From the NCBI GenBank assembly GCA_029940695.1, contig JAPYUP010000002.1:1-64000 (forward strand): 64,000 nt of DNA, given 5' to 3'. Made by a program: the position numbers and the translations under genes. Numbering within the stretch: position 1 is the first letter of the stretch; each line of letters begins with the position of its first letter. The notes under the pieces are model-generated. The model searched no databases. It worked only from the letters and a program-made list of their open reading frames with translations, and had not been told where the DNA came from. Positions 19,586 to 31,968 of the stretch are shown here, piece after piece. Source of the DNA: Candidatus Thalassarchaeaceae archaeon (GTDB lineage Archaea; Thermoplasmatota; Poseidoniia; Poseidoniales; Thalassarchaeaceae).

Positions 19586-19903
19586 ATGGCTAGGGACGAA
19601 GTTTTGAGATCTATTAAGGAAGCCGAAGAGAAGACTAGGGTCAAGTTGGAGAAGGCGCGCACGGACGCCTCGAACATAACAAGCAAAGCTCGTGCTAAGG
19701 AGGCCGACACCATCGCCTCCGGGCTGCAAAACGCCGAGGCGGAGGCACAGTCCATGCTCAATGAGGCGAGAGAGGATGCGGGCAAAGAGGCTGACTCGGT
19801 CCGGGCCGAGGGTGAAGCCGCTCTTGCAGCGATTCACGAGCACGGTGAGAAGAACCGTTCCTCTGCGGTCGATGCGGTGCTCGACGCGTTCCTCCAATCA
19901 TAG
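19586..19903 (+). CDS. A/V-type ATP synthase subunit H
   Basis: Short coiled-coil MARDEVLRSIKEAEEKTRVKLEKARTDASNITSKAR... at first position of the ATP synthase operon. Confidence 0.85.
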   Translation: MARDEVLRSIKEAEEKTRVKLEKARTDASNITSKARAKEADTIASGLQNAEAEAQSMLNEAREDAGKEADSVRAEGEAALAAIHEHGEKNRSSAVDAVLDAFLQS

Positions 19904-19943
19904 AAAACCAACAGAGTTGACTGATAGGATCGGAGTTGGAAGA

Positions 19944-22307
19944 ATGGGACAGTTTACTACCCAAGGGATGTCGCGCCTGACCGCTGCAGGCTCGCTCTCC
20001 GTGGTCGATGAAGCAGTTCGCTCTCTCGCCGATTTGAAGGCAATCCACCTCCTAGATTATCCAGGTGACGAGGAGGGTTTTGACTTAGGGAGCCCCGCTG
20101 ATGAATCCGAGGAGATCGGTCGCGATCTCAACCGTTACCGTAGCGCATCCTCACAACTTGAGCTCAGCGGCCCGAAAAAACTGCTTGGGTCCGTGCCTAT
20201 TCGTAGTCATCTGGACGGAGAGCTCCCCTCTCGCGTCGAGGTGATGCTCGAACACTTGGATCGGGCCGATGCCATCGACAGCGAACTCTCCAGCATGGAA
20301 GAAGAAGAAGGAGCTTTGGAATTACTGCGGCCACTGGGCCTCGAACTCGGCCTGCTTTCAGGTTACGAGTCCCTAGCCGTCTTCGTAGGCACCGTGAAGG
20401 ATGTTCTCCGAGCCGAGTCCTGTGCTCCTGGTGGCATTGTAATGATCAAGGGTGACAAGCCAACTGTGGTCGCAGTGTTCTGCGAAAACGGTTCTGCGAA
20501 CGAAGTGCAGTCAGAGTTGGGAGAAGCAGGGTTCTCCGCTATCTCGGTTCCTGATGGCGAGGGCTCGATAGTGGCTCGACAGGAATTGCTCGCTGCGAGG
20601 CGTGACGAACTGCTGGAAGAGCGCTCTGCCCTACAGGGTGAGTTGGACAGTTGGGCCGAGGTCAATGGTGCGATCCTGCTGGGGGGAATCGAACTCCTAG
20701 AAAGGGACATGGCATTGGCACTTGGGCCAATTAAAGTCGCAGTCAGTGGTCACGCCTTCGTTATTGATGGGTGGGTAGAGAGTTCTCGCTCCGAAGAGGT
20801 CGGTGCAGTTCTTTCCAAAACCTGCGAGGTCATCGACATCGTGCCGTTCAAAATAGCCCCTGGGGGCGGGGGGCACGCTCACCATGGATCCGAACTCAAA
20901 CTACCCCCAATCAAGTTCGCTGATCGGCGTGCGAGCAAGCCGATGGAGTTGCTCACCGATCTGATGGGTCGCCCTCGCTACGGCAAGATAGACCCGACAC
21001 TGTTCATGTTCTTCACCTACCCCCTGTTCTTCGGACTCATTCTTGGAGACATACTATACGGTGCTGCCACGATATTATTCGGCTATTTCCTCTACACGAG
21101 AATCGGGCATACTGAGACCGGTCTCCTTGCCTCCAAGTTCGTTGCCTACATAGGCATGGCCGCAGTGGTCTTCGGATACATCTACGGTGAGTTCGCCGGA
21201 TTTGAAATTCTACCACACGGCCACTGCGACATAGAGGCAATCGTCGGCGCGCATGCGTGTGAGGTTGCGCATGGGCACTGGCATTGGGGGGCATCGAGCG
21301 CTCCGGATTGGGCTACATGGCTCACAGCCTTGTACCCCTCCGGCGGAGAGATCTACTACGAGTGGTCATGGGATTTCGGTGGACTGGTTATTGCCTTCCC
21401 CCTCCATAGGGTAGTACCAAATTCGGCCGGTGGCAACCTTCAGGATTTGCTCCTTCTGACGATCTACATGGGTGCAGTCCACGTTCTATTAGGCCTGATA
21501 CTCGGATTCCGTGACGTCTGGCTCCACGGAGACAGCCATGGCAATACTGGTCCAGTTGTTGCATTTTTCGATCGCGGTTCGTGGATATTCATCTTGATGG
21601 GTGGTTACATCTTCGCCAAGGGCTTCCTCGGACTGAAAGACGCCCCCGGCGACGAGATGCTTACAATGTTGCAGAACTACGGTGGCATACTAATTGTCAT
21701 CGGCGTACTGATGCTCAGTTATGCCAGCTACAAATACCATGGGATGCCCGTATTCATCGCAGCACTGCTCGGACCCATCGAGGGCATCGGCATGATGCCG
21801 ACAATCATCTCCTATGTGCGGCTGTTCGCTGTGGGAGTTGCCGGTGTCAAGATAGCAGAGACTGGAAACGAAATGCTATACGGTCACATCGAAGATGGGC
21901 ACGCAACTGGCATGTTAGGGGTGCTGGATGATCTAGCACATAATCACGACATCTCTGGTGTGATGCTATTGCTCCTGTTGCTACCTGTCATCGTTCCCTT
22001 CTTGGTCAAATTCGGTAAGATTTCCCTGCCGGTCAACATTTCCTTCGGCAGGATGTTTCTAGGTGGCTTCCTTCTATCGGGATTTCTTGGATTCGCCCTC
22101 GGCGCCGGTAACAATGTCTTCATGCTGATGATTCTCTTCTTCTCTTGGCTCGGGGTACAGATCTTCGCGTGGATACTGGGACTTGTCAGTCCAAACATTC
22201 ACACGGCCCGACTCCACGTAGTCGAGTGGATGAAGCAGTTCTACGAAGCCGTCGGTGACAAGTTCGAGCCATTCGGGTTCACTGCCCGAGTTGTGGAGGT
22301 AGAGTAA
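19944..22307 (+). CDS. A/V-type ATP synthase subunit I (a-subunit)
   Basis: Starts MGQFTTQGMSRLTAAG; RYGKIDPTLFMFFTYPLFFGLILGDILYG, multiple TMs, ISYVRLFAVGVAG. Confidence 0.93.
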   Translation: MGQFTTQGMSRLTAAGSLSVVDEAVRSLADLKAIHLLDYPGDEEGFDLGSPADESEEIGRDLNRYRSASSQLELSGPKKLLGSVPIRSHLDGELPSRVEVMLEHLDRADAIDSELSSMEEEEGALELLRPLGLELGLLSGYESLAVFVGTVKDVLRAESCAPGGIVMIKGDKPTVVAVFCENGSANEVQSELGEAGFSAISVPDGEGSIVARQELLAARRDELLEERSALQGELDSWAEVNGAILLGGIELLERDMALALGPIKVAVSGHAFVIDGWVESSRSEEVGAVLSKTCEVIDIVPFKIAPGGGGHAHHGSELKLPPIKFADRRASKPMELLTDLMGRPRYGKIDPTLFMFFTYPLFFGLILGDILYGAATILFGYFLYTRIGHTETGLLASKFVAYIGMAAVVFGYIYGEFAGFEILPHGHCDIEAIVGAHACEVAHGHWHWGASSAPDWATWLTALYPSGGEIYYEWSWDFGGLVIAFPLHRVVPNSAGGNLQDLLLLTIYMGAVHVLLGLILGFRDVWLHGDSHGNTGPVVAFFDRGSWIFILMGGYIFAKGFLGLKDAPGDEMLTMLQNYGGILIVIGVLMLSYASYKYHGMPVFIAALLGPIEGIGMMPTIISYVRLFAVGVAGVKIAETGNEMLYGHIEDGHATGMLGVLDDLAHNHDISGVMLLLLLLPVIVPFLVKFGKISLPVNISFGRMFLGGFLLSGFLGFALGAGNNVFMLMILFFSWLGVQIFAWILGLVSPNIHTARLHVVEWMKQFYEAVGDKFEPFGFTARVVEVE

Positions 22308-22353
22308 TCACATCAGATTCCAATGCTATGCATGGAGAAAGGAGAATGAAAGA

Positions 22354-22677
22354 ATGAAGAATATGAAGTTGACGAGATTGAGTATGCGATTGTTGCTAGT
22401 GCTATCAGGTTTGACTCTGATTGCTAGCGTGGTTACCGCACAGGGAGGCACGCCGAGTGACTCCGGGTTTGCTGAGAGTGATACCATGGCCAAGCTGGCC
22501 GCGGGCATTGCACTGGCGGGTTGCGGCATCGGAACTGGCCTAGGACAAGGACAGATTGGTGCAGCAGCAGTCGGCTGGGTGGCTGAAGACGGCTCTAAGT
22601 TAGGGCTTGCAATGCTATTCACCGTGTTGCCTGAGACCATACTGATTTTCGGATTCCTTGCAATGTTCATACTGTGA
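22354..22677 (+). CDS. A/V-type ATP synthase subunit K (proteolipid c)
   Basis: N-terminal leader, then LAAGIALAGCGIGTGLGQGQIGAAAVG ... LAMLFTVLPETILIFGFLAMFIL hairpin. Confidence 0.93.
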   Translation: MKNMKLTRLSMRLLLVLSGLTLIASVVTAQGGTPSDSGFAESDTMAKLAAGIALAGCGIGTGLGQGQIGAAAVGWVAEDGSKLGLAMLFTVLPETILIFGFLAMFIL

Positions 22678-22714
22678 ATGTTCGGGATGAAGAACAGGAT
22701 AAGGAGAACTACAC

Positions 22715-23314
22715 ATGACGTTAGATGCACTTGCAATTGAAATTGACAAGGCGGCGGATGAAGAGGCGAAAGCCATAACCGATGCTGCCAAGGCAAAAGC
22801 CGAGGACATCGTCGCAGAAGCCGAGCGCAAACTGAAGTCGCTACGCAGTGACATTCTCTCCAAAACTGAGAGGGAGTGCTCTCAAATCAAGACCGAAATG
22901 ATTGCCTCGGCTAGACAGGCCAATCAGAAGTCGATTCTCATTGCGCGCAGGGAAGAGCTCGACGTGACCAAAGTGTCTGTTAGGGAGATGGTTAAATCGA
23001 CCAATCTGAAGGGCCGTTCCGCCCTGCTCAAATCACTCGTCGCAGAAGCTAAGGATGATGCGAAGACGGAGCTCACGCGGGGCAAGAAGGGCAAGAAGAA
23101 GATGATCCTGAGGCCCGTGAGAGTCGATCGTTCAGTTCTGAAGAAGAGTGGGGACGACTTTGTAGTCAGTGATGACATCGATGGTCTAGGTGGCTTCGTT
23201 CTTGAGACACCGGACGGCTCGGTAGTCCTCGACTACCGCTTCGATGCACTTTTGGAGAATTCTTGGACCAGAGCTCTCCCTGCGGTGACGTCGACACTGT
23301 TCGGAGAGAATTGA
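22715..23314 (+). CDS. A/V-type ATP synthase subunit E
   Basis: Coiled-coil N-terminus, operon position, C-terminal GGFVLETPDGSVVLDYRFDALLENSW. Confidence 0.9.
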   Translation: MTLDALAIEIDKAADEEAKAITDAAKAKAEDIVAEAERKLKSLRSDILSKTERECSQIKTEMIASARQANQKSILIARREELDVTKVSVREMVKSTNLKGRSALLKSLVAEAKDDAKTELTRGKKGKKKMILRPVRVDRSVLKKSGDDFVVSDDIDGLGGFVLETPDGSVVLDYRFDALLENSWTRALPAVTSTLFGEN

Positions 23315-23321
23315 AGAAGGA

Positions 23322-24395
23322 GTGAGAGTGATGGCGACAGTAACGACTGGGCAATCCAATTGGGCCAACGCATCAGCGCGTGGCAAGGCTCGCAAGGCTG
23401 GGTTGATTGACGATACACGCATGCGCCAGTTGCTGCAACAGTCCCCGGACTCAATCGCCGCCAGCATCGCCGAATTCGGCTATCGGGACGAACTCGACAA
23501 GTATGCTGGTAGTCTAAGCGGCGTAGACCTGATCGAGGCCGCATTGAACCACAACATGGACCGGGACCTTAAGCAGGTGCTCGGTTTCTGCCAAGGGCAC
23601 TTGAAGGGTCTGGTATCCATCTACACGGAGAGATTCACCTATCAGAAGGTGAAGGCCGCCCTCAGAGCGATTCACAGTGGCGTTTCGCTGGACGTCGTGG
23701 CTAGCCAGGTTCTGCCTGAACAAAACGAAGCTAATCTCCAATGGCTGGAGTTGGTCAACAACACGGAAACACTGCAAGACGCCGTTTCGGCGCTCGATGG
23801 AACGCAATTCGGACGTGCACTCGCCGACCTCGATGGGAACAATGACCTGATGGCTATCGAGGATGCGCTCGACCGCCACTACTACTCTGCTGCCACGAAG
23901 AAGCTGCGTGAAGGCACGACTCGCCATCCGATGCTTCTTCGCTACCTGCGAACGGAAATAGACCATAGAAACGTGATCAACCTGTTTCGCATTCTCAAGC
24001 AGAAAATGCCTGCTGAGAAGCGTAGCGAGTTGATGATCTCTGGTGGCAGGGCGATCACATCGACGTTGTTGCGTCAAGCGGCAGAGGCGGAAAACGAGGA
24101 GTCTTTGCTCGAAATTCTCAGGCGCGCCCCTGGATTCGACGACAGCGGCTTCGACGAGGCGCTGGCCGAGTCAAGAGAGGGGGGGACTCTTGACCCGATT
24201 GTGAATCTCCTAAACATTCAGAGACTGGAATTGCTGAATCGGATGAATATGCTCAATCCTCTGTCGGCGTTTCCTCTAATCTACTATATCGAAAGAAAAG
24301 TGCTAGAGGTGCGCAATCTACGCTTACTCGTGCGTGGGAAGGCAGTAGATCTTCCCAACGATGTCATCGCATCACATCTAAGGCTGGGACTATGA
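23322..24395 (+). CDS. A/V-type ATP synthase subunit C
   Basis: NRMNMLNPLSAFPLIYYIERKVLEVRNLRLLVRGKAVDLPNDVI; operon position. Confidence 0.92.
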   Translation: MRVMATVTTGQSNWANASARGKARKAGLIDDTRMRQLLQQSPDSIAASIAEFGYRDELDKYAGSLSGVDLIEAALNHNMDRDLKQVLGFCQGHLKGLVSIYTERFTYQKVKAALRAIHSGVSLDVVASQVLPEQNEANLQWLELVNNTETLQDAVSALDGTQFGRALADLDGNNDLMAIEDALDRHYYSAATKKLREGTTRHPMLLRYLRTEIDHRNVINLFRILKQKMPAEKRSELMISGGRAITSTLLRQAAEAENEESLLEILRRAPGFDDSGFDEALAESREGGTLDPIVNLLNIQRLELLNRMNMLNPLSAFPLIYYIERKVLEVRNLRLLVRGKAVDLPNDVIASHLRLGL

Positions 24396-24408
24396 GGGGG
24401 AACTAAGA

Positions 24409-24708
24409 GTGGAGATAGCAATAGTCGGGACCCCCGAATTCACCCTAGGTTTCCAACTCGCGGGCATCACACGCCTGCACAACCCAGAGAGCATAGAGGA
24501 GACGGGCGACGTCCTGCGATCGATGATAGAGGAGGATGAAGTCGGTATCATCGTCATCGATGCGGCCGAACTCACGAGTCTGCCGGAGAAGTTGCGTCAG
24601 CGCCTGTCCGACAGCATTTCGCCCACAGTTCTGGGCATCGGGACCCAGGAGGATAATACCCTCCGAGAGTCCATTAAGTCGGCTCTAGGAGTCGACCTTT
24701 GGAAGTGA
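24409..24708 (+). CDS. A/V-type ATP synthase subunit F
   Basis: EIAIVGTPEFTLGFQLAGI ... EEDEVGIIVIDAAEL; operon position. Confidence 0.92.
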   Translation: MEIAIVGTPEFTLGFQLAGITRLHNPESIEETGDVLRSMIEEDEVGIIVIDAAELTSLPEKLRQRLSDSISPTVLGIGTQEDNTLRESIKSALGVDLWK

Positions 24709-24738
24709 TTCCTCAAGAGAAAAAAAGGAAGTGAAAAT

Positions 24739-26481
24739 ATGAGTGAAGATAATGGAATAATTTACAGAATCTCTGGGCCGGTTGTCACCGCAGTGGGTAT
24801 CACCCCGAGAATGTACGAAGTGGTGCGAGTAGGCGATGAAGGGCTGATGGGAGAAGTAATCGAATTGCATGGTGACCAATCGGTCATTCAGGTGTATGAG
24901 GAGACATCCGGTGTCAAGCCCGGGGAGCCAGTCATCAGGACGGGGCAGACCCTGTCCGTAAAACTGGGTCCGGGTCTGTTGACCCAAATCTACGACGGCA
25001 TCCAGCGTCCCCTCGCGGACCTAGAGGCCACTATGGGTGTGTTCATCACACGAGGAGTAGATGCCGACGGACTCGATATGAAGAAGGAGTGGGAGTTCAA
25101 CGCGACCGTCGCGATTGGCGACGAGGTCTCAGGGGGTGACGTGATCGGCACTGTCCAAGAGACCGAGACCGTCGAGCACAGGGTAATGGTGCCGCCCGGT
25201 ACCAGCGGCAAGGTAGCCAGCATCCAGTCGGGCAAGTTCAACATCACCGCTACGGTGTGCTCACTTGAAGATGGAACAGAGATAGCGATGATGCAGGAGT
25301 GGCCGGTGCGAACACCAAGGCCGTTTGTACAGAAGTACGCTCCCGACGTTCCGCTAGTCACAGGTCAGAGGATTCTCGACTTTCTATTCCCTCTCGCAAA
25401 GGGCGGCACGGCTGGTATTCCAGGGCCCTTCGGGTCCGGTAAGACGGTTGCTCAGCAGCAACTTGCCAAGTGGTCGGACGCTCAAATCGTTGTATACATC
25501 GGCTGCGGTGAACGAGGGAATGAGATGACTGAGGTTCTAAGCGAGTTCCCTCATCTTATTGATCCAAACACCGGCAAACCCCTGATGAACAGGACCACTA
25601 TGATTGCCAACACCTCCAACATGCCAGTGGCTGCCCGCGAAGCTTCGGTTTACACTGGAATCACCATCGCCGAGTACTTCCGCGACATGGGTTACGATGT
25701 TGCTCTGATGGCCGACTCCACCAGCAGGTGGGCTGAGGCCATGCGTGAAATCTCATCCCGTTTGGAAGAGATGCCGGGCGAGGAGGGCTATCCCGCTTAC
25801 CTGTCAAGCCGATTGGCTGAGTTCTACGAACGAGCCGGTCGTGTGGAGACTCTAGCCGGGGACGACGGCTCGGTCTCCGTTATCGGAGCCGTGTCCCCAC
25901 CTGGTGGTGACATCTCAGAGCCAGTCAGCCAAGGAACTCTGAGAATCGTCAAGGTATTCTGGGGTCTAGACGCCGGTCTCGCACGGCAGCGACACTTCCC
26001 TGCCATCAACTGGCTCAGTTCGTACAGCCTGTACCCACAGGCCCTCGACCCATGGTACCGCGATAACATAGCCAGCGACTACCCAGAGGTCCGGACCAAG
26101 ATCAGCAGTCTGCTCCAAATCGAGGCCGAGCTCCAGGAAATTGTCCAGTTGGTCGGCTCGGACGCACTGCCGGTAGACCAGCAACTGACTCTAGAGGTGG
26201 CGCGAATGATTCGCGAGTACTTCCTCCAGCAGAACGCATTCCACGATGTCGACACATTCAGCTCCCTCAGCCTGCAGTACACCATGGCCAAGGCCATCTT
26301 GACCTTCCAGGAAGAGGCGGAGAAAGCCATCGCCGGGGGGGCCAGTCTCGAGGAGGTCGTCAACGTGCCCGCGCGCACCGACCTCATGAGGGGCCGCTTC
26401 GAACAGGGCTACGATGTACGCATCGATGAGTTACTCGGGGAGATGTCGAAACAGATCGCCGGGACTAGGGAGGATAACTAA
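24739..26481 (+). CDS. A/V-type ATP synthase catalytic subunit A
   Basis: [46 protein letters not shown]. Confidence 0.98.
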
Positions 26482-26494
26482 GGGGGTGCCATGA

Positions 26495-27880
26495 ATGAGC
26501 GGAAAAGAATACAGGACAATTACTGACGTAAAGGGACCATTGGTCTTCCTCGAGAAGACCGAACCAGTGGCCTTCGGAGAGATCGTGCAACTTCGACTAT
26601 CTGACGGCTCGATGAAGAACGGACAGGTACTGGACACCAGCGACGAGCAAGTCATCGTTCAGGTCTTCGAGGGAACCGCCTCGGTCGACCGGCAGACGGG
26701 GGTCAGATTCCTCGGTGACGTATTTCGACTGCCCGTGAGCAAGGACCTCGTTGGAAGGATTCTAGCCGGTAACGGCAAGCCCAGAGACGGGGGCCCCGAG
26801 ATTGTTGCCGAAGAGATGGCGGACATCATCGGAGCAGCCATCAACCCATATAGCCGAGAGAGCCCTGAGCAATTCATCCAGACCGGCATCTCTGCAATCG
26901 ATGCCTGTACCACCCTGGTACGCGGTCAGAAGTTGCCAATCTTCTCGGCATCAGGTCTGCCGCACAACGACATAGCCCTGCAGATCGCCCGACAAGCCAA
27001 GCTCATCGATAGCGACGACGACTTCGTCGTCGTTTTCTGCGCGATGGGAATCACAGCTGAGGAGTACAACTTCTTCGTTCACGACCTCGAACGCACCGGT
27101 GCCATGGAGAACGCGGTGCTGTTCGTCAACCTAGCCGATGACCCGGCGGTCGAGCGGCTGATCACACCGCGACTGGCCCTAACAGCAGCGGAGTATTTGG
27201 CCTTCGAGCACGACTACCACGTGCTAGTCATCTACACTGACATGACCAACTACTGTGAATCCCTCCGGCAAATCGGAGCCGCCCGAGAGGAAGTCCCGGG
27301 TCGACGTGGTTACCCCGGTTACATGTACACCGATCTGGCCATGCTGTACGAGCGTGCTGGAATCATCAAGGGCAAGAAGGGGAGCATCACACAGTTCCCT
27401 ATTCTCACTATGCCCGGAGACGATATCACTCATCCGATACCGGATCTTTCGGGATACATCACCGAGGGGCAGATTGTGATTTCTCGTGAACTGCACCAGA
27501 AGGGAATCTACCCTCCGATCAACGTGCTTCCTTCCCTGTCCCGACTGATGAACGCCGGCATAGGCGAGGGCAAGACCCGCGAAGACCACAAATCGGTCTC
27601 CGACCAGTTGTACGCCGCCTACGCCCAAGGGCGCGAGTTGCGTGGCTTAGTTGCCATCGTAGGTGAGGACGCACTGAACGAGCGCGACCTGCAGATGCTG
27701 AAGTTCGCGGATATCTTCGAGGATCAGTTCCTGAGGCAGAGCCGCGATGACGACCGCTCGATTAATGAGGGCACTCTCGACCTCGCTTGGAACCTGTTGA
27801 CCAATATCGATACCAAGTTCCTCGTGAGGCTCGATCAGAAGTGGATCGACAAGTACCACCCCACGGAGAAGAAGTCCTGA
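26495..27880 (+). CDS. A/V-type ATP synthase subunit B
   Basis: [38 protein letters not shown] ... [11 protein letters not shown]-type motif ([23 protein letters not shown]). Confidence 0.98.
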
Positions 27881-27908
27881 GGGTGACATTTTCGCTGGAG
27901 GTGACAGG

Positions 27909-28526
27909 ATGGCACTCGACATCAAACCGACCCGCAGCGAGTTGATTACCCTCAAGCGCCGCATCAAGCAAACCGAAAACGGGTACAACCTGCTCAAGAT
28001 GAAGCGCGACGGGCTTTTCCACGAGTTCAGGGCCCTGCTGTCCGAGATGATTGCAGCCAGAGAAGAGCTTGTCGGGACTTACAGGGACGCTGTCCGGGCG
28101 ATTGGGCTGGCCAGCGCCATGGAAGGCGGCCTCGCTGCAAAGAGCGCCGCAATAGCCATCTCACGTCATCCCGAGGTCACAGTAACTCGTCGCAACATCA
28201 TGGGCGTAGTAGTTCCAAGCGTGGTAGGGACAAATCTGACTACGTCCATCGACGAACGTGGAACTGGCCTAATCGGCGGCTCTGCATACATCGACGAGGC
28301 ATCGGATTCGTACTCTACACTGGTTGAGAAAATAGTCAGAGCAGCCGAGATGGAGGCGACTCTCAAACGACTGCTCGTTGAGATTGAAGCGACCAAGCGT
28401 CGTGTCAACGCCCTCGAGTACGTGGTCATACCCCAGATGGAAGAGGCCCGCAACTTCATCCAACTCCGTTTGGAGGAGATGGAGCGTGAGGAGACATTCC
28501 GTCTGAAGCGCTTCAAGAACAAATGA
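27909..28526 (+). CDS. A/V-type ATP synthase subunit D
   Basis: MALDIKPTRSELITLKRRIKQTENGYNLLKMKRDGLFHEF; KRRVNALEYVVIPQMEEARNFIQLRLEEMEREE. Confidence 0.97.
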   Translation: MALDIKPTRSELITLKRRIKQTENGYNLLKMKRDGLFHEFRALLSEMIAAREELVGTYRDAVRAIGLASAMEGGLAAKSAAIAISRHPEVTVTRRNIMGVVVPSVVGTNLTTSIDERGTGLIGGSAYIDEASDSYSTLVEKIVRAAEMEATLKRLLVEIEATKRRVNALEYVVIPQMEEARNFIQLRLEEMEREETFRLKRFKNK

Positions 28527-28579
28527 GCCCCATGGCTCTCCTGACTTAGAGCGAGGGGTCAAATCGGACCCCCTCCCGC

Positions 28580-31018
28580 ATGGCTGTGTCAGGTGAGTGC
28601 ATGTCAGACTCGGAACCCATCGTCATCGATACTGAGACTTGGGGTTCGCAGGAACTGTGCGAAGTCATCGTCTCAAGGTACTTCGTCCTAGGTAACGAGG
28701 GGGCGACTCCCGCATCCTGGGAGGTACGAGGGCTCGATGACAAGGACGCTAGCAATCAGCTGGTTCGACTGAACAGGCACCTAAAGCCGCTTGGCATGGT
28801 GGGCGTCCTCGAAGACAGGAATCCACCGATTCTATCAATCGCTCGATATCCCTCGAGCCATTCTGTTCTGCGGACGTGGCAGCAGGTTCTGGTATGGTTC
28901 CTGATGGCAGGGTTCATGACCATGGTCGGAGCGAGTTGGCTGGCGAGGTACGAGACTGAGAGCAAAGCCCTACAGACAAGCACGTTAGGCCAGTCCGCCC
29001 TCTTCTTCACGCTCCCCATCGTGGTCTCCCTCCTGATAGCGAGTCACCTGAGAAGCGTCGTCGCGAAGCGCTACGGTGTCGAGATTGGCCACATGGTCCC
29101 AATCGTATTCCCCATTCCGATGCCCTCTTGGCCTTTCGGAATTGTCGGCGTCATGGGGCAGCGCCGTACCGACCTGCTACCCATGCCCAATCGAAGGGCT
29201 CTTGGGCTGATCGAGATCGTAGTTCCTCTGACACTCTTCGTTGCCGGCACTTCGCTTACCATAGTCGGATTGAGTTTCACATCCAGCACTCCGCCGAGCC
29301 TCGATGAGGCCCCTGTAGTCTTCGAGGCCAATGCGATAGTCCAGATTCTCTCTGCGTCCTGGTTGGGAGAGGACTTCGGCATCAGGCTCCAGTGGCTTCA
29401 CCCCACTGGAATTGCGGGTATTGGTCTGTCTATCATCGGCTGGGGGCTGATGCTGCCGATTCCGGGATTCCCCGGTGACAGGGCGCTACACTCCCTAATC
29501 GGACCATCTGAGATGAGGGACAGCAGCGTCCAGACGTCCATCTTCGTCGTGATGCTAGTAGTTCTGGTGCTCGTGTTCACTGCCTCGGACTACATGCCGT
29601 GGATCTTCCTCGCTCTCGTCGGGGCCTGGCAGAGGTTCAGTCCTGAGATCGTTCCACAGCCATTTGTCGTGGACGAGTACGCTGGATTGGACAATCAAGT
29701 GAGGGGGAGACTGGCGTCCATAGTGCTCGTCGTACTGATTGCCGGCTTCCCAGGCATGATGCCTTCGAGCCTGCTAGGTGACTATGATGCAGGACTCTCT
29801 ACTGAGAGTTGGCCCGATGAGTTGGCGGTTCAGCCCGGCGAGGAGTTATCCTACTTGCTAGTGCTCGAGCCTGAAGGAGTCCTACCAGTAACAGGATGGC
29901 TGCAGATGCGAATCGAGGGGGGGATGTCGAGTCAATGGGGTATCTCATCCGAATGCCTCGACTTACGGGGGACTTGCCCGTTCTCAGGCGTCCTACAAGC
30001 CAACACAGGCGAGGTCTCCATCACAATCACCCCACCAGAGACCAGTGTCGTTCCACACTCCCTGAGAATCCTAATCGATGTCCAGGGAAACCAGAAGGAG
30101 CACGTCATCGGGCTCATTCACACTGGCTCCTCCGGACCGCTCCAGACGTTCTGGGCTCTTGTGGACGGTGGCGTCAACCCATTAATCTGCATTGACGTGA
30201 GAATCTCAGAGGGCGATTCCGGCAACCTGACCACAAATGACCCGTATTGGGGCTTCGCGAACGATACCGAGCTGCGCCCTGGGCTGCAAGAGATCTGTCT
30301 GAGGGGTCACGAGGGAGCAATGCAGTCCTCCGAGGGCACGGACGAGCAACACAGGAAGTTAGGCCCCGAGGTAGTGTTCGAACGCGACGACGGTTCGAAC
30401 GAGACCTGGCAATTGGCAATCGAGGGCTCTGAGCCGGCATTGTATATCTCTGGGGGCGAGTGGTCGCTTCCGAGTTGGTTCGCAGCCGGCTCTGAGAACG
30501 TCATCTATCATGCTGACAGCGGCTCGGCATTCTGCCCATCGAGCGATATGGCCGCAGAAGTGGACACGAGCGAGAACTGGTCGAGGACGCTTGAGGACTA
30601 CTCGCCCATCCAAATCACCGGTGATCGTGGTGGGAACGGAACTCTGGGCCTAGGTGACATTGGCTGGATAGCCGTGTGCTCGGGAGATGGTATAATCGAG
30701 TCCTATCGAATCGTTGAGGGAGTCGATGTGTTGATTGTCCCGGGTAGCATCGGGCAGGGGCTAGATTCCTCTGAATTTGTCCTTCACAACAGAGGTGGCG
30801 AACAGCTTTCGGTCTCTGTCGAATGGCACGGGGACTCGCCAGAGAGCGGTATCTGGGACGTTTCCATTCCGGATTTCGTCGAGTCAGGTGGCTCGGCTGT
30901 TTTGGGGGCCTTCCCCACAGGTGAGCTCCCTCTTCTTCGAGCCTTGTGGGTATCCGCAGACGAAGACGGGATTGTGGTCCACCTTGCCGCCCGATGCCCG
31001 ACAGTGGGGTGTGCATGA
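28580..31018 (+). CDS. Site-2-protease (EGY-type M50) family pseudoprotease with large C-terminal extracytoplasmic region
   Basis: S2P-like N-terminal module (VSRYFVLGNEG...LVRLNRHLKPLGMVGVLEDRNPPILSIARYP), then AKRYGVEIGHMVPIVFPIPMPSWPFGIVGVMGQRRTDLLPMPNRRALGLIEIVVPL and LQWLHPTGIAGIGLSIIGWGLMLPIPGFPGDRALHSLIG; expected HExxH position reads SHLRS. Confidence 0.75.
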   Translation: MAVSGECMSDSEPIVIDTETWGSQELCEVIVSRYFVLGNEGATPASWEVRGLDDKDASNQLVRLNRHLKPLGMVGVLEDRNPPILSIARYPSSHSVLRTWQQVLVWFLMAGFMTMVGASWLARYETESKALQTSTLGQSALFFTLPIVVSLLIASHLRSVVAKRYGVEIGHMVPIVFPIPMPSWPFGIVGVMGQRRTDLLPMPNRRALGLIEIVVPLTLFVAGTSLTIVGLSFTSSTPPSLDEAPVVFEANAIVQILSASWLGEDFGIRLQWLHPTGIAGIGLSIIGWGLMLPIPGFPGDRALHSLIGPSEMRDSSVQTSIFVVMLVVLVLVFTASDYMPWIFLALVGAWQRFSPEIVPQPFVVDEYAGLDNQVRGRLASIVLVVLIAGFPGMMPSSLLGDYDAGLSTESWPDELAVQPGEELSYLLVLEPEGVLPVTGWLQMRIEGGMSSQWGISSECLDLRGTCPFSGVLQANTGEVSITITPPETSVVPHSLRILIDVQGNQKEHVIGLIHTGSSGPLQTFWALVDGGVNPLICIDVRISEGDSGNLTTNDPYWGFANDTELRPGLQEICLRGHEGAMQSSEGTDEQHRKLGPEVVFERDDGSNETWQLAIEGSEPALYISGGEWSLPSWFAAGSENVIYHADSGSAFCPSSDMAAEVDTSENWSRTLEDYSPIQITGDRGGNGTLGLGDIGWIAVCSGDGIIESYRIVEGVDVLIVPGSIGQGLDSSEFVLHNRGGEQLSVSVEWHGDSPESGIWDVSIPDFVESGGSAVLGAFPTGELPLLRALWVSADEDGIVVHLAARCPTVGCA

Positions 31019-31968
31019 TGCGTATTGCAATCCTAGGCGTGGGTTCGGTCGGAGGGGTACTGGTCGGTGCTCTCGCTGACACCCAAGTTGGGTTGCTATG
31101 CGTATCTAGGGGGGAGACCGTCGCCTCCCTACGAGTTGGGTTGGTGATTCACACTCCCGAGGGCGCTATCGAGATGGTATCTCCGGACCGCTATGACGTC
31201 ATAGACAGCGAGGAGGGGCCGATTCCCGACATACATGTCGGAACTTACGACGTTGCCATCATCGCTGGGAAGGCCTCGTCAACGCCAATACTAGCATCGC
31301 TAGCCGAGGAGGTCCTGTCACCGAGTGGGCTCGCCATCAGCATCCAGAATGGACTGGGGCACGCCGAGACGCTCACACATAGAATAGGCCGCAAGCGCGT
31401 CCTCGGAGGCTCGACCACTCACTCGGCGTGGAGGGACGGAGATGGCTCAGTACATTGGTCCGGCAGGGGTGTGGTCGAATTCGGACAACTGGACGGGGCC
31501 GATATGACTGGTATTTCGAAGGAATTACACGATGCGCTGGAGACGGCGGGTTTGAGCCCCAAGTGGTCCTCCGACATTCAGAGCGTGATTTGGAGGAAGC
31601 TGCTCATCAACGTCGCCATAAATCCGGTTTGCGCCATCGCCGGAGTGCGTAACGGTGCCCTCGCTCAGGTGCCCGAGTTGTGGGAGCAGTCGATAGCGGC
31701 CATGCGAGAGGCCGAACTCGTCGCTCGAGCGGCTGGAATTGATGTGGGCGATGGTGACATCGAAGATTACCTGCGCGAGGTCGTCATAGCCACATCGGAC
31801 AACCGAGTCTCCATGCTGCAGGACCTGATGGCAGGGCGAAGGACCGAGATAGACTCACTTTGTGGCGAAGTCGTTGCCAAAGGGGATGAGTTCGGTGTGC
31901 CGACGCCTAGAAACGAGATGCTTCTTGCACTCGTAAGAGGCATTGAGATGTCCCAGCGCCACGACTAG
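31015..31968 (+). CDS. 2-dehydropantoate 2-reductase (ketopantoate reductase family)
   Basis: MMRIAILGVGSVGGVLVGALA, SIQNGLGHAETL, GGSTTHSAWRDGDGSVHWSGRG, IWRKLLINVAINPVCAIAGVRNG, SMLQDLMAGRRTEIDSLCGEV. Confidence 0.92.
   Translation: MMRIAILGVGSVGGVLVGALADTQVGLLCVSRGETVASLRVGLVIHTPEGAIEMVSPDRYDVIDSEEGPIPDIHVGTYDVAIIAGKASSTPILASLAEEVLSPSGLAISIQNGLGHAETLTHRIGRKRVLGGSTTHSAWRDGDGSVHWSGRGVVEFGQLDGADMTGISKELHDALETAGLSPKWSSDIQSVIWRKLLINVAINPVCAIAGVRNGALAQVPELWEQSIAAMREAELVARAAGIDVGDGDIEDYLREVVIATSDNRVSMLQDLMAGRRTEIDSLCGEVVAKGDEFGVPTPRNEMLLALVRGIEMSQRHD

Follow-up and report, generated by a model that had tools for sequence, protein, structure and literature searches.

Directly behind the ATP synthase genes of a planktonic archaeon lies a gene whose product resembles a site-2 protease (S2P) with a destroyed HExxH motif, and the locus raises the question of what such a protein is and why it stays where it is. 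The window, i.e., the whole stretch of DNA that was analysed, covers 64,000 nucleotides of contig JAPYUP010000002.1 from Candidatus Thalassarchaeaceae archaeon, whose genome has 1.4 Mb in 44 contigs. The open reading frame at this place (28580-31018, plus strand) opens at ATG 28580 and encodes 812 aa. We placed the start at ATG 28601, giving 805 aa, because relatives share the sequence 'MSDSEP...' at the corresponding Met. According to Pfam, the eight genes directly upstream form a complete-looking A-type ATP synthase operon, and the stop codon of the pseudoprotease overlaps the start codon of panE (ATGA).

19692-28526, plus strand: A-type ATP synthase operon I-K-E-C-F-A-B-D, Pfam match for every subunit
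27909-28526, plus strand: atpD, last gene of the ATP synthase operon (Pfam)
28527-28600, plus strand: gap of 74 nt between atpD and the pseudoprotease gene, carrying the hairpin-capable GAGGGGTCAAATCGGACCCCCTC (about 28552-28574)
28601-31018, plus strand: S2P (M50, EGY-like) pseudoprotease gene, 805 aa, ortholog in 277/294 genomes of the order
31015-31968, plus strand: panE/ApbA ketopantoate reductase (Pfam ApbA)

Taken singly, the window protein had no match in Pfam, NCBIfam or PDB sequence searches; its S2P identity became visible only through profiles of orthologs. Peptidase_M50 (PF02163) was matched by 8 of 41 orthologs (best 4.9e-6), and a family profile searched across the phylum found proteins of about 360-750 aa with E-values down to 1e-31. 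When the family was compared by hhalign with an alignment of intact EGY-like S2Ps of Thermoplasmatota, the match (probability 99.9, E = 1e-32, 405 columns) ran from the N-terminal domain through the membrane core into the beginning of the beta region. The AlphaFold model has a pLDDT of 85.7 over the full length and 81.0 in the core, and Foldseek placed the S2P of M. jannaschii (3b4r) at the top of the PDB matches of the predicted core (probability 1.00, E 4.4e-3, TMt 0.48), other S2P entries being SpoIVFB (8vjl, probability 0.80) and RseP (9j82, probability 0.33). The structural E-value is modest; the profile comparison is strong evidence for S2P descent. The full-length model drew mostly generic Ig-like chains, and these matches did not indicate ligands. 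By fold, the protein is a member of the S2P/M50 superfamily, of the EGY-like type.

Its parts, in the order in which they are encoded, are as follows.

28601-28870, plus strand: N-terminal cytoplasmic alpha/beta domain, residues 1-90 (AlphaFold secondary structure; within the hhalign match)
28874-29743, plus strand: S2P membrane core, residues 92-381 (AlphaFold; Foldseek 3b4r, probability 1.00)
29039-29053, plus strand: degenerate HExxH position, ASHLR, residues 147-151 (joint alignment of 127 pseudoprotease and 33 intact sequences)
29129-29140, plus strand: W-P-F-G, residues 177-180 (nearly invariant columns in the family)
29447-29482, plus strand: degenerate NxxP...LDGGH position, LMLPIPGFPGDR, residues 283-294 (joint alignment)
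29765-31015, plus strand: predicted extracytoplasmic beta-sandwich domains, residues 389-805 (AlphaFold, Foldseek, invariant columns)

Both catalytic motifs are gone from the window protein. HExxH is replaced by A147-S148-H149-L150-R151, which turns the first His into Ala, the Glu into Ser and the second His into Arg. The second motif, NLLPAGQLDGGH in relatives, reads LMLPIPGFPGDR here, with Pro291 in place of the Asp. The joint alignment combines 127 distinct orthologs from Poseidoniales (Marine Group II) with 33 intact relatives from elsewhere in the phylum. Neither the first His nor the Glu of HExxH occurs in any of the 127 orthologs (mostly Ala and mostly Ser, respectively), and the second His is kept in four (mostly Arg or Gln elsewhere). 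The Asp of LDGG is likewise absent from all of them (Pro in 123, Ala in 4); in the same region, five orthologs retain the Asn, and all retain the Gly that follows the Asp position. By contrast, all 33 aligned Thermoplasmatota relatives keep every catalytic residue. We considered a relocated metal site and rejected it: within residues 1-395, none of the His, Asp, Glu and Cys positions is invariant. Of these positions, just two in the membrane core reach 70%, namely H267 (88%), which the intact relatives have too, and D293 (71%). A motif scan of 20 further orthologs returned a single HExxH, the HEQRH of one of them (L143), which lies in the outer domain at about residue 465 and is a chance match. 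With the defining catalytic features absent from its sequence, the protein is not expected to be an active S2P.

The first-pass annotation had already read this gene as an S2P scaffold with a destroyed HExxH, and both points hold, the first by profile and structure alike. It had located the motif as SHLRS (29042-29056), one residue late in register, which leaves its conclusion unchanged. It had also described a conserved inactive S2P with about 450 aa of extracytoplasmic beta-rich sequence, directly downstream of the ATP synthase operon and on the same strand. The conserved inactivity, the large outer domain and the position proved correct across the order; the beta domain stands as well, with its length revised to about 415 aa. 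Of the two findings that would have contradicted it, orthologs with an intact HExxH and the want of a structural match to S2P, neither turned up. The membrane chaperone or regulator that it suggested is a putative function.

The N-terminal alpha/beta domain is common to the pseudoprotease and the intact EGY-like S2Ps. Seven membrane helices are predicted (92-117, 126-157, 198-226, 268-283, 308-328, 333-346 and 365-381), and a strand region (165-197) follows the second helix of the core. The WPFG residues sit where intact S2Ps have a GTFGAF loop, in a part of the model with low confidence (pLDDT below 50 at 178-181). Given seven helices, a cytoplasmic N-terminal domain would place the C-terminal 415 residues on the outer side of the membrane. 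This part is modelled as all beta (pLDDT mostly 80-94), gives Foldseek matches to Ig-like/ASH-type beta-sandwich chains, and is acidic (63 D/E vs 16 K/R). Its four invariant Cys (530, 566, 645, 693) could form two disulfides.

How widely is this protein kept? An ortholog is present in 277 of the 294 Poseidoniales genomes. The other 17, which gave no match in the first search, are not taken as independent losses: 13 of them lack atpD too, and three more have a contig that breaks off within atpD or shortly behind it. The last one (G179) has a short contig (C27:1-3000), the only one seen in Poseidoniales where an unrelated convergent gene comes after atpD, an arrangement that is possibly a misassembly. 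Compared with its nearest relative, the window gene has dN 0.116 and dS 0.802 (NG86; dN/dS ~0.14), and hence evolves under purifying selection. None of the 127 orthologs has an intact HExxH and, as open reading frames are intact at this dN/dS, strain-specific decay is rejected. Taken together, the absence of the site from all orthologs examined, the low dN/dS and the fixed locus indicate that this is a lineage-wide S2P pseudoprotease, fixed across Poseidoniales, as far as sequences can tell. Two database entries stood out in passing. Contig PANV01000002.1, labelled Candidatus Neomarinimicrobiota (a bacterium), carries the archaeal pseudoprotease locus, and its label or binning is probably wrong. 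One genome of family f2 (G102) has two members of the protein family (contigs C7 and C1), of which one is nearly f1-like and lies at a contig edge; this second copy is probably contamination of the draft genome.

In a quick, unrooted tree without outgroup, the pseudoprotease sequences formed one branch with a support of 100, apart from all intact ones. When 97 Poseidoniales genomes were searched with a profile of the intact family, no active EGY-like S2P turned up, which suggests that the dead protein has replaced the active one in this order. The genome of the window still encodes two intact S2Ps of other types (HEYSH/PFDGGH and HEFAH/PLDGRK). The sister order, which we identify as MGIII from its kinship label, has no S2P after atpD and an active S2P elsewhere; this places both the inactivation and the relocation on the stem of Poseidoniales. 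The intact EGY-like S2P of this sister order has about 525 aa, including a C-terminal outer domain, and should be a useful outgroup for dating the loss of the catalytic site.

Several known systems share some of these traits. The EGY-like S2Ps of Thermoplasmatota (PF02163) are the closest, since their N-terminal domain, membrane core and C-terminal beta position align over the 405 columns; they differ in keeping HExxH and NLLPAGQLDGGH-type motifs, both lost in the pseudoprotease, and in having shorter outer regions or none. The proteins 3b4r, 8vjl and 9j82, among the best structural matches of the core, are active zinc proteases that lack the outer beta domains. Plant EGY3 is likewise an S2P homolog whose catalytic site no longer works, and it is conserved in a large clade (PMC9355673). 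It is a stress-induced protein of the chloroplast thylakoid, described from plants only, and we liken it to the archaeal protein by description rather than by sequence comparison. To our knowledge, EGY3 has no large outer beta domain. Finally, iRhoms offer an analogy only, that of a dead intramembrane-protease scaffold acting on membrane clients (PMC3149277), as their fold and catalytic class are unrelated. The 2022 paper on EGY3 presents it as the only pseudoenzyme of the S2P family, in plants only (PMC9355673), and M50 is absent from a review of metallopeptidase pseudoenzymes (PMC11266112). The open-access literature that we searched describes no S2P pseudoenzyme besides EGY3, and an earlier report may exist elsewhere. 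The profile of the archaeal clade matches that of intact Thermoplasmatota S2Ps of the EGY-like type, and the tree holds no plant sequence; the clade is a second case, apparently independent of EGY3.

The link to the ATP synthase genes comes from gene order. The order atpD-pseudoprotease-panE was found in all 62 fetched loci, from both families of Poseidoniales. In the 57 loci with full flanks, atpB, atpD, the pseudoprotease and panE were always kept (57/57), as opposed to fpg (25/57) and aqp (8/57), the next downstream genes of the window. We saw no atp genes in the flanks of the intact EGY-like relatives. The ATP synthase of Marine Group II is an unusual one, whose c ring carries sodium-type motifs (PMC6336850). 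In Thalassarchaeaceae, ATP synthase is among the highly transcribed genes (PMC9723583). Our search of the open-access literature found no relevant paper on assembly factors of archaeal ATP synthases.

The gap between atpD and the pseudoprotease has features of its own. In the window, 28545-28580 holds a short, conserved, hairpin-capable element (GAGGGGTCAAATCGGAC...). Many close relatives have a related sequence (a regular expression matched related forms in 37/126 loci), and other clades have different recurrent motifs in the same gap. The element is not widespread in the genome, where the exact 10-mer GGGTCAAATC occurs only three times. It is possibly a promoter, a processing site or an attenuation site.

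We propose the following scenario. On the Poseidoniales stem, an EGY-like S2P would have lost its zinc-binding His, catalytic Glu and zinc-binding Asp, its extracytoplasmic beta-sandwich region would have been enlarged, and the gene would have taken its fixed place behind the A1AO ATP synthase operon, with atpD on one side and panE on the other. The catalytic residues being lost in all species examined, the protein probably holds membrane partners or helps to assemble them, and does not cut. Its substrate-cradle fold may still bind transmembrane segments, and the clients may be subunits I/a and K/c of the membrane part of the ATP synthase, for which it would act as a membrane chaperone, an assembly factor or a stabilising accessory protein; the outer domains would contact the complex or another surface partner. 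Reasoning from synteny, we give about even credence to a non-catalytic role at the A1AO ATP synthase, be it as a membrane chaperone, in its assembly or as an accessory protein. A more tentative proposal is that the protease was converted once, on the Marine Group II stem, into a dedicated assembly factor or a permanent accessory subunit of this enzyme. Some observations count against a role in ATP synthase. Synteny alone is no proof of a functional tie, since panE, which serves in coenzyme A biosynthesis, keeps its place just as strictly, and its function is probably unrelated to that of the pseudoprotease in spite of their adjacency in every locus checked. The outer domain, about half of the protein, has no obvious use in an assembly factor, and the 74-nt gap with its conserved element could provide separate expression. 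The G179 locus without a pseudoprotease after atpD also speaks against a fixed link, if it is not a misassembly.

The same case of panE leaves room for a regulator resembling iRhoms or derlins, which would present membrane or secreted clients to active proteases, or shield them from these, and would have inherited the site behind atpD only as a well-expressed position. Dead intramembrane-protease scaffolds work in this way in eukaryotes (iRhoms, PMC3149277), and the genome retains two intact S2Ps of other types. Yet all 62 loci have the gene in this position, which it acquired in the lineage that also saw the inactivation, and we regard a regulator of this kind, not specific to ATP synthase, as rather unlikely. 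The membrane core might instead be a simple anchor for a surface sensor or cell-envelope protein, whose Ig-like outer domains would bind extracellular ligands or the S-layer. The size of the beta-sandwich region and its invariant cysteines fit such a function, and outer domains also stand at the C-terminus of several intact relatives, in one case with a weak match to a NEW3 domain. But it is the core that is more constrained (dN 0.088 vs 0.144 in the outer part, at similar dS), with 20 of the 26 invariant columns located before residue 400. A core that served only as an anchor would be free to drift, and we consider this reading clearly improbable.

A protease still active through displaced or unconventional catalytic residues has no direct support and is very hard to reconcile with two catalytic motifs replaced by fixed non-ligands and with the scarcity of conserved candidate ligands described above; we think it highly improbable. 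A decaying gene or an assembly error could be suspected from the few orthologs that are split at contig edges or have one in-frame stop in draft genomes, but intact reading frames across the order and the low dN/dS refute it, leaving it a negligible probability.

Throughout an abundant order of planktonic ocean archaea, a pseudoprotease is fixed, and gene order ties it to the energy-converting machine of the cell. It provides a case, open to test, in which a protease scaffold would have been put to non-catalytic use in the membrane, and it may point to a new partner of archaeal ATP synthases. If the proposal is true, this partner would be built on a dead protease fold and carry large outer domains.
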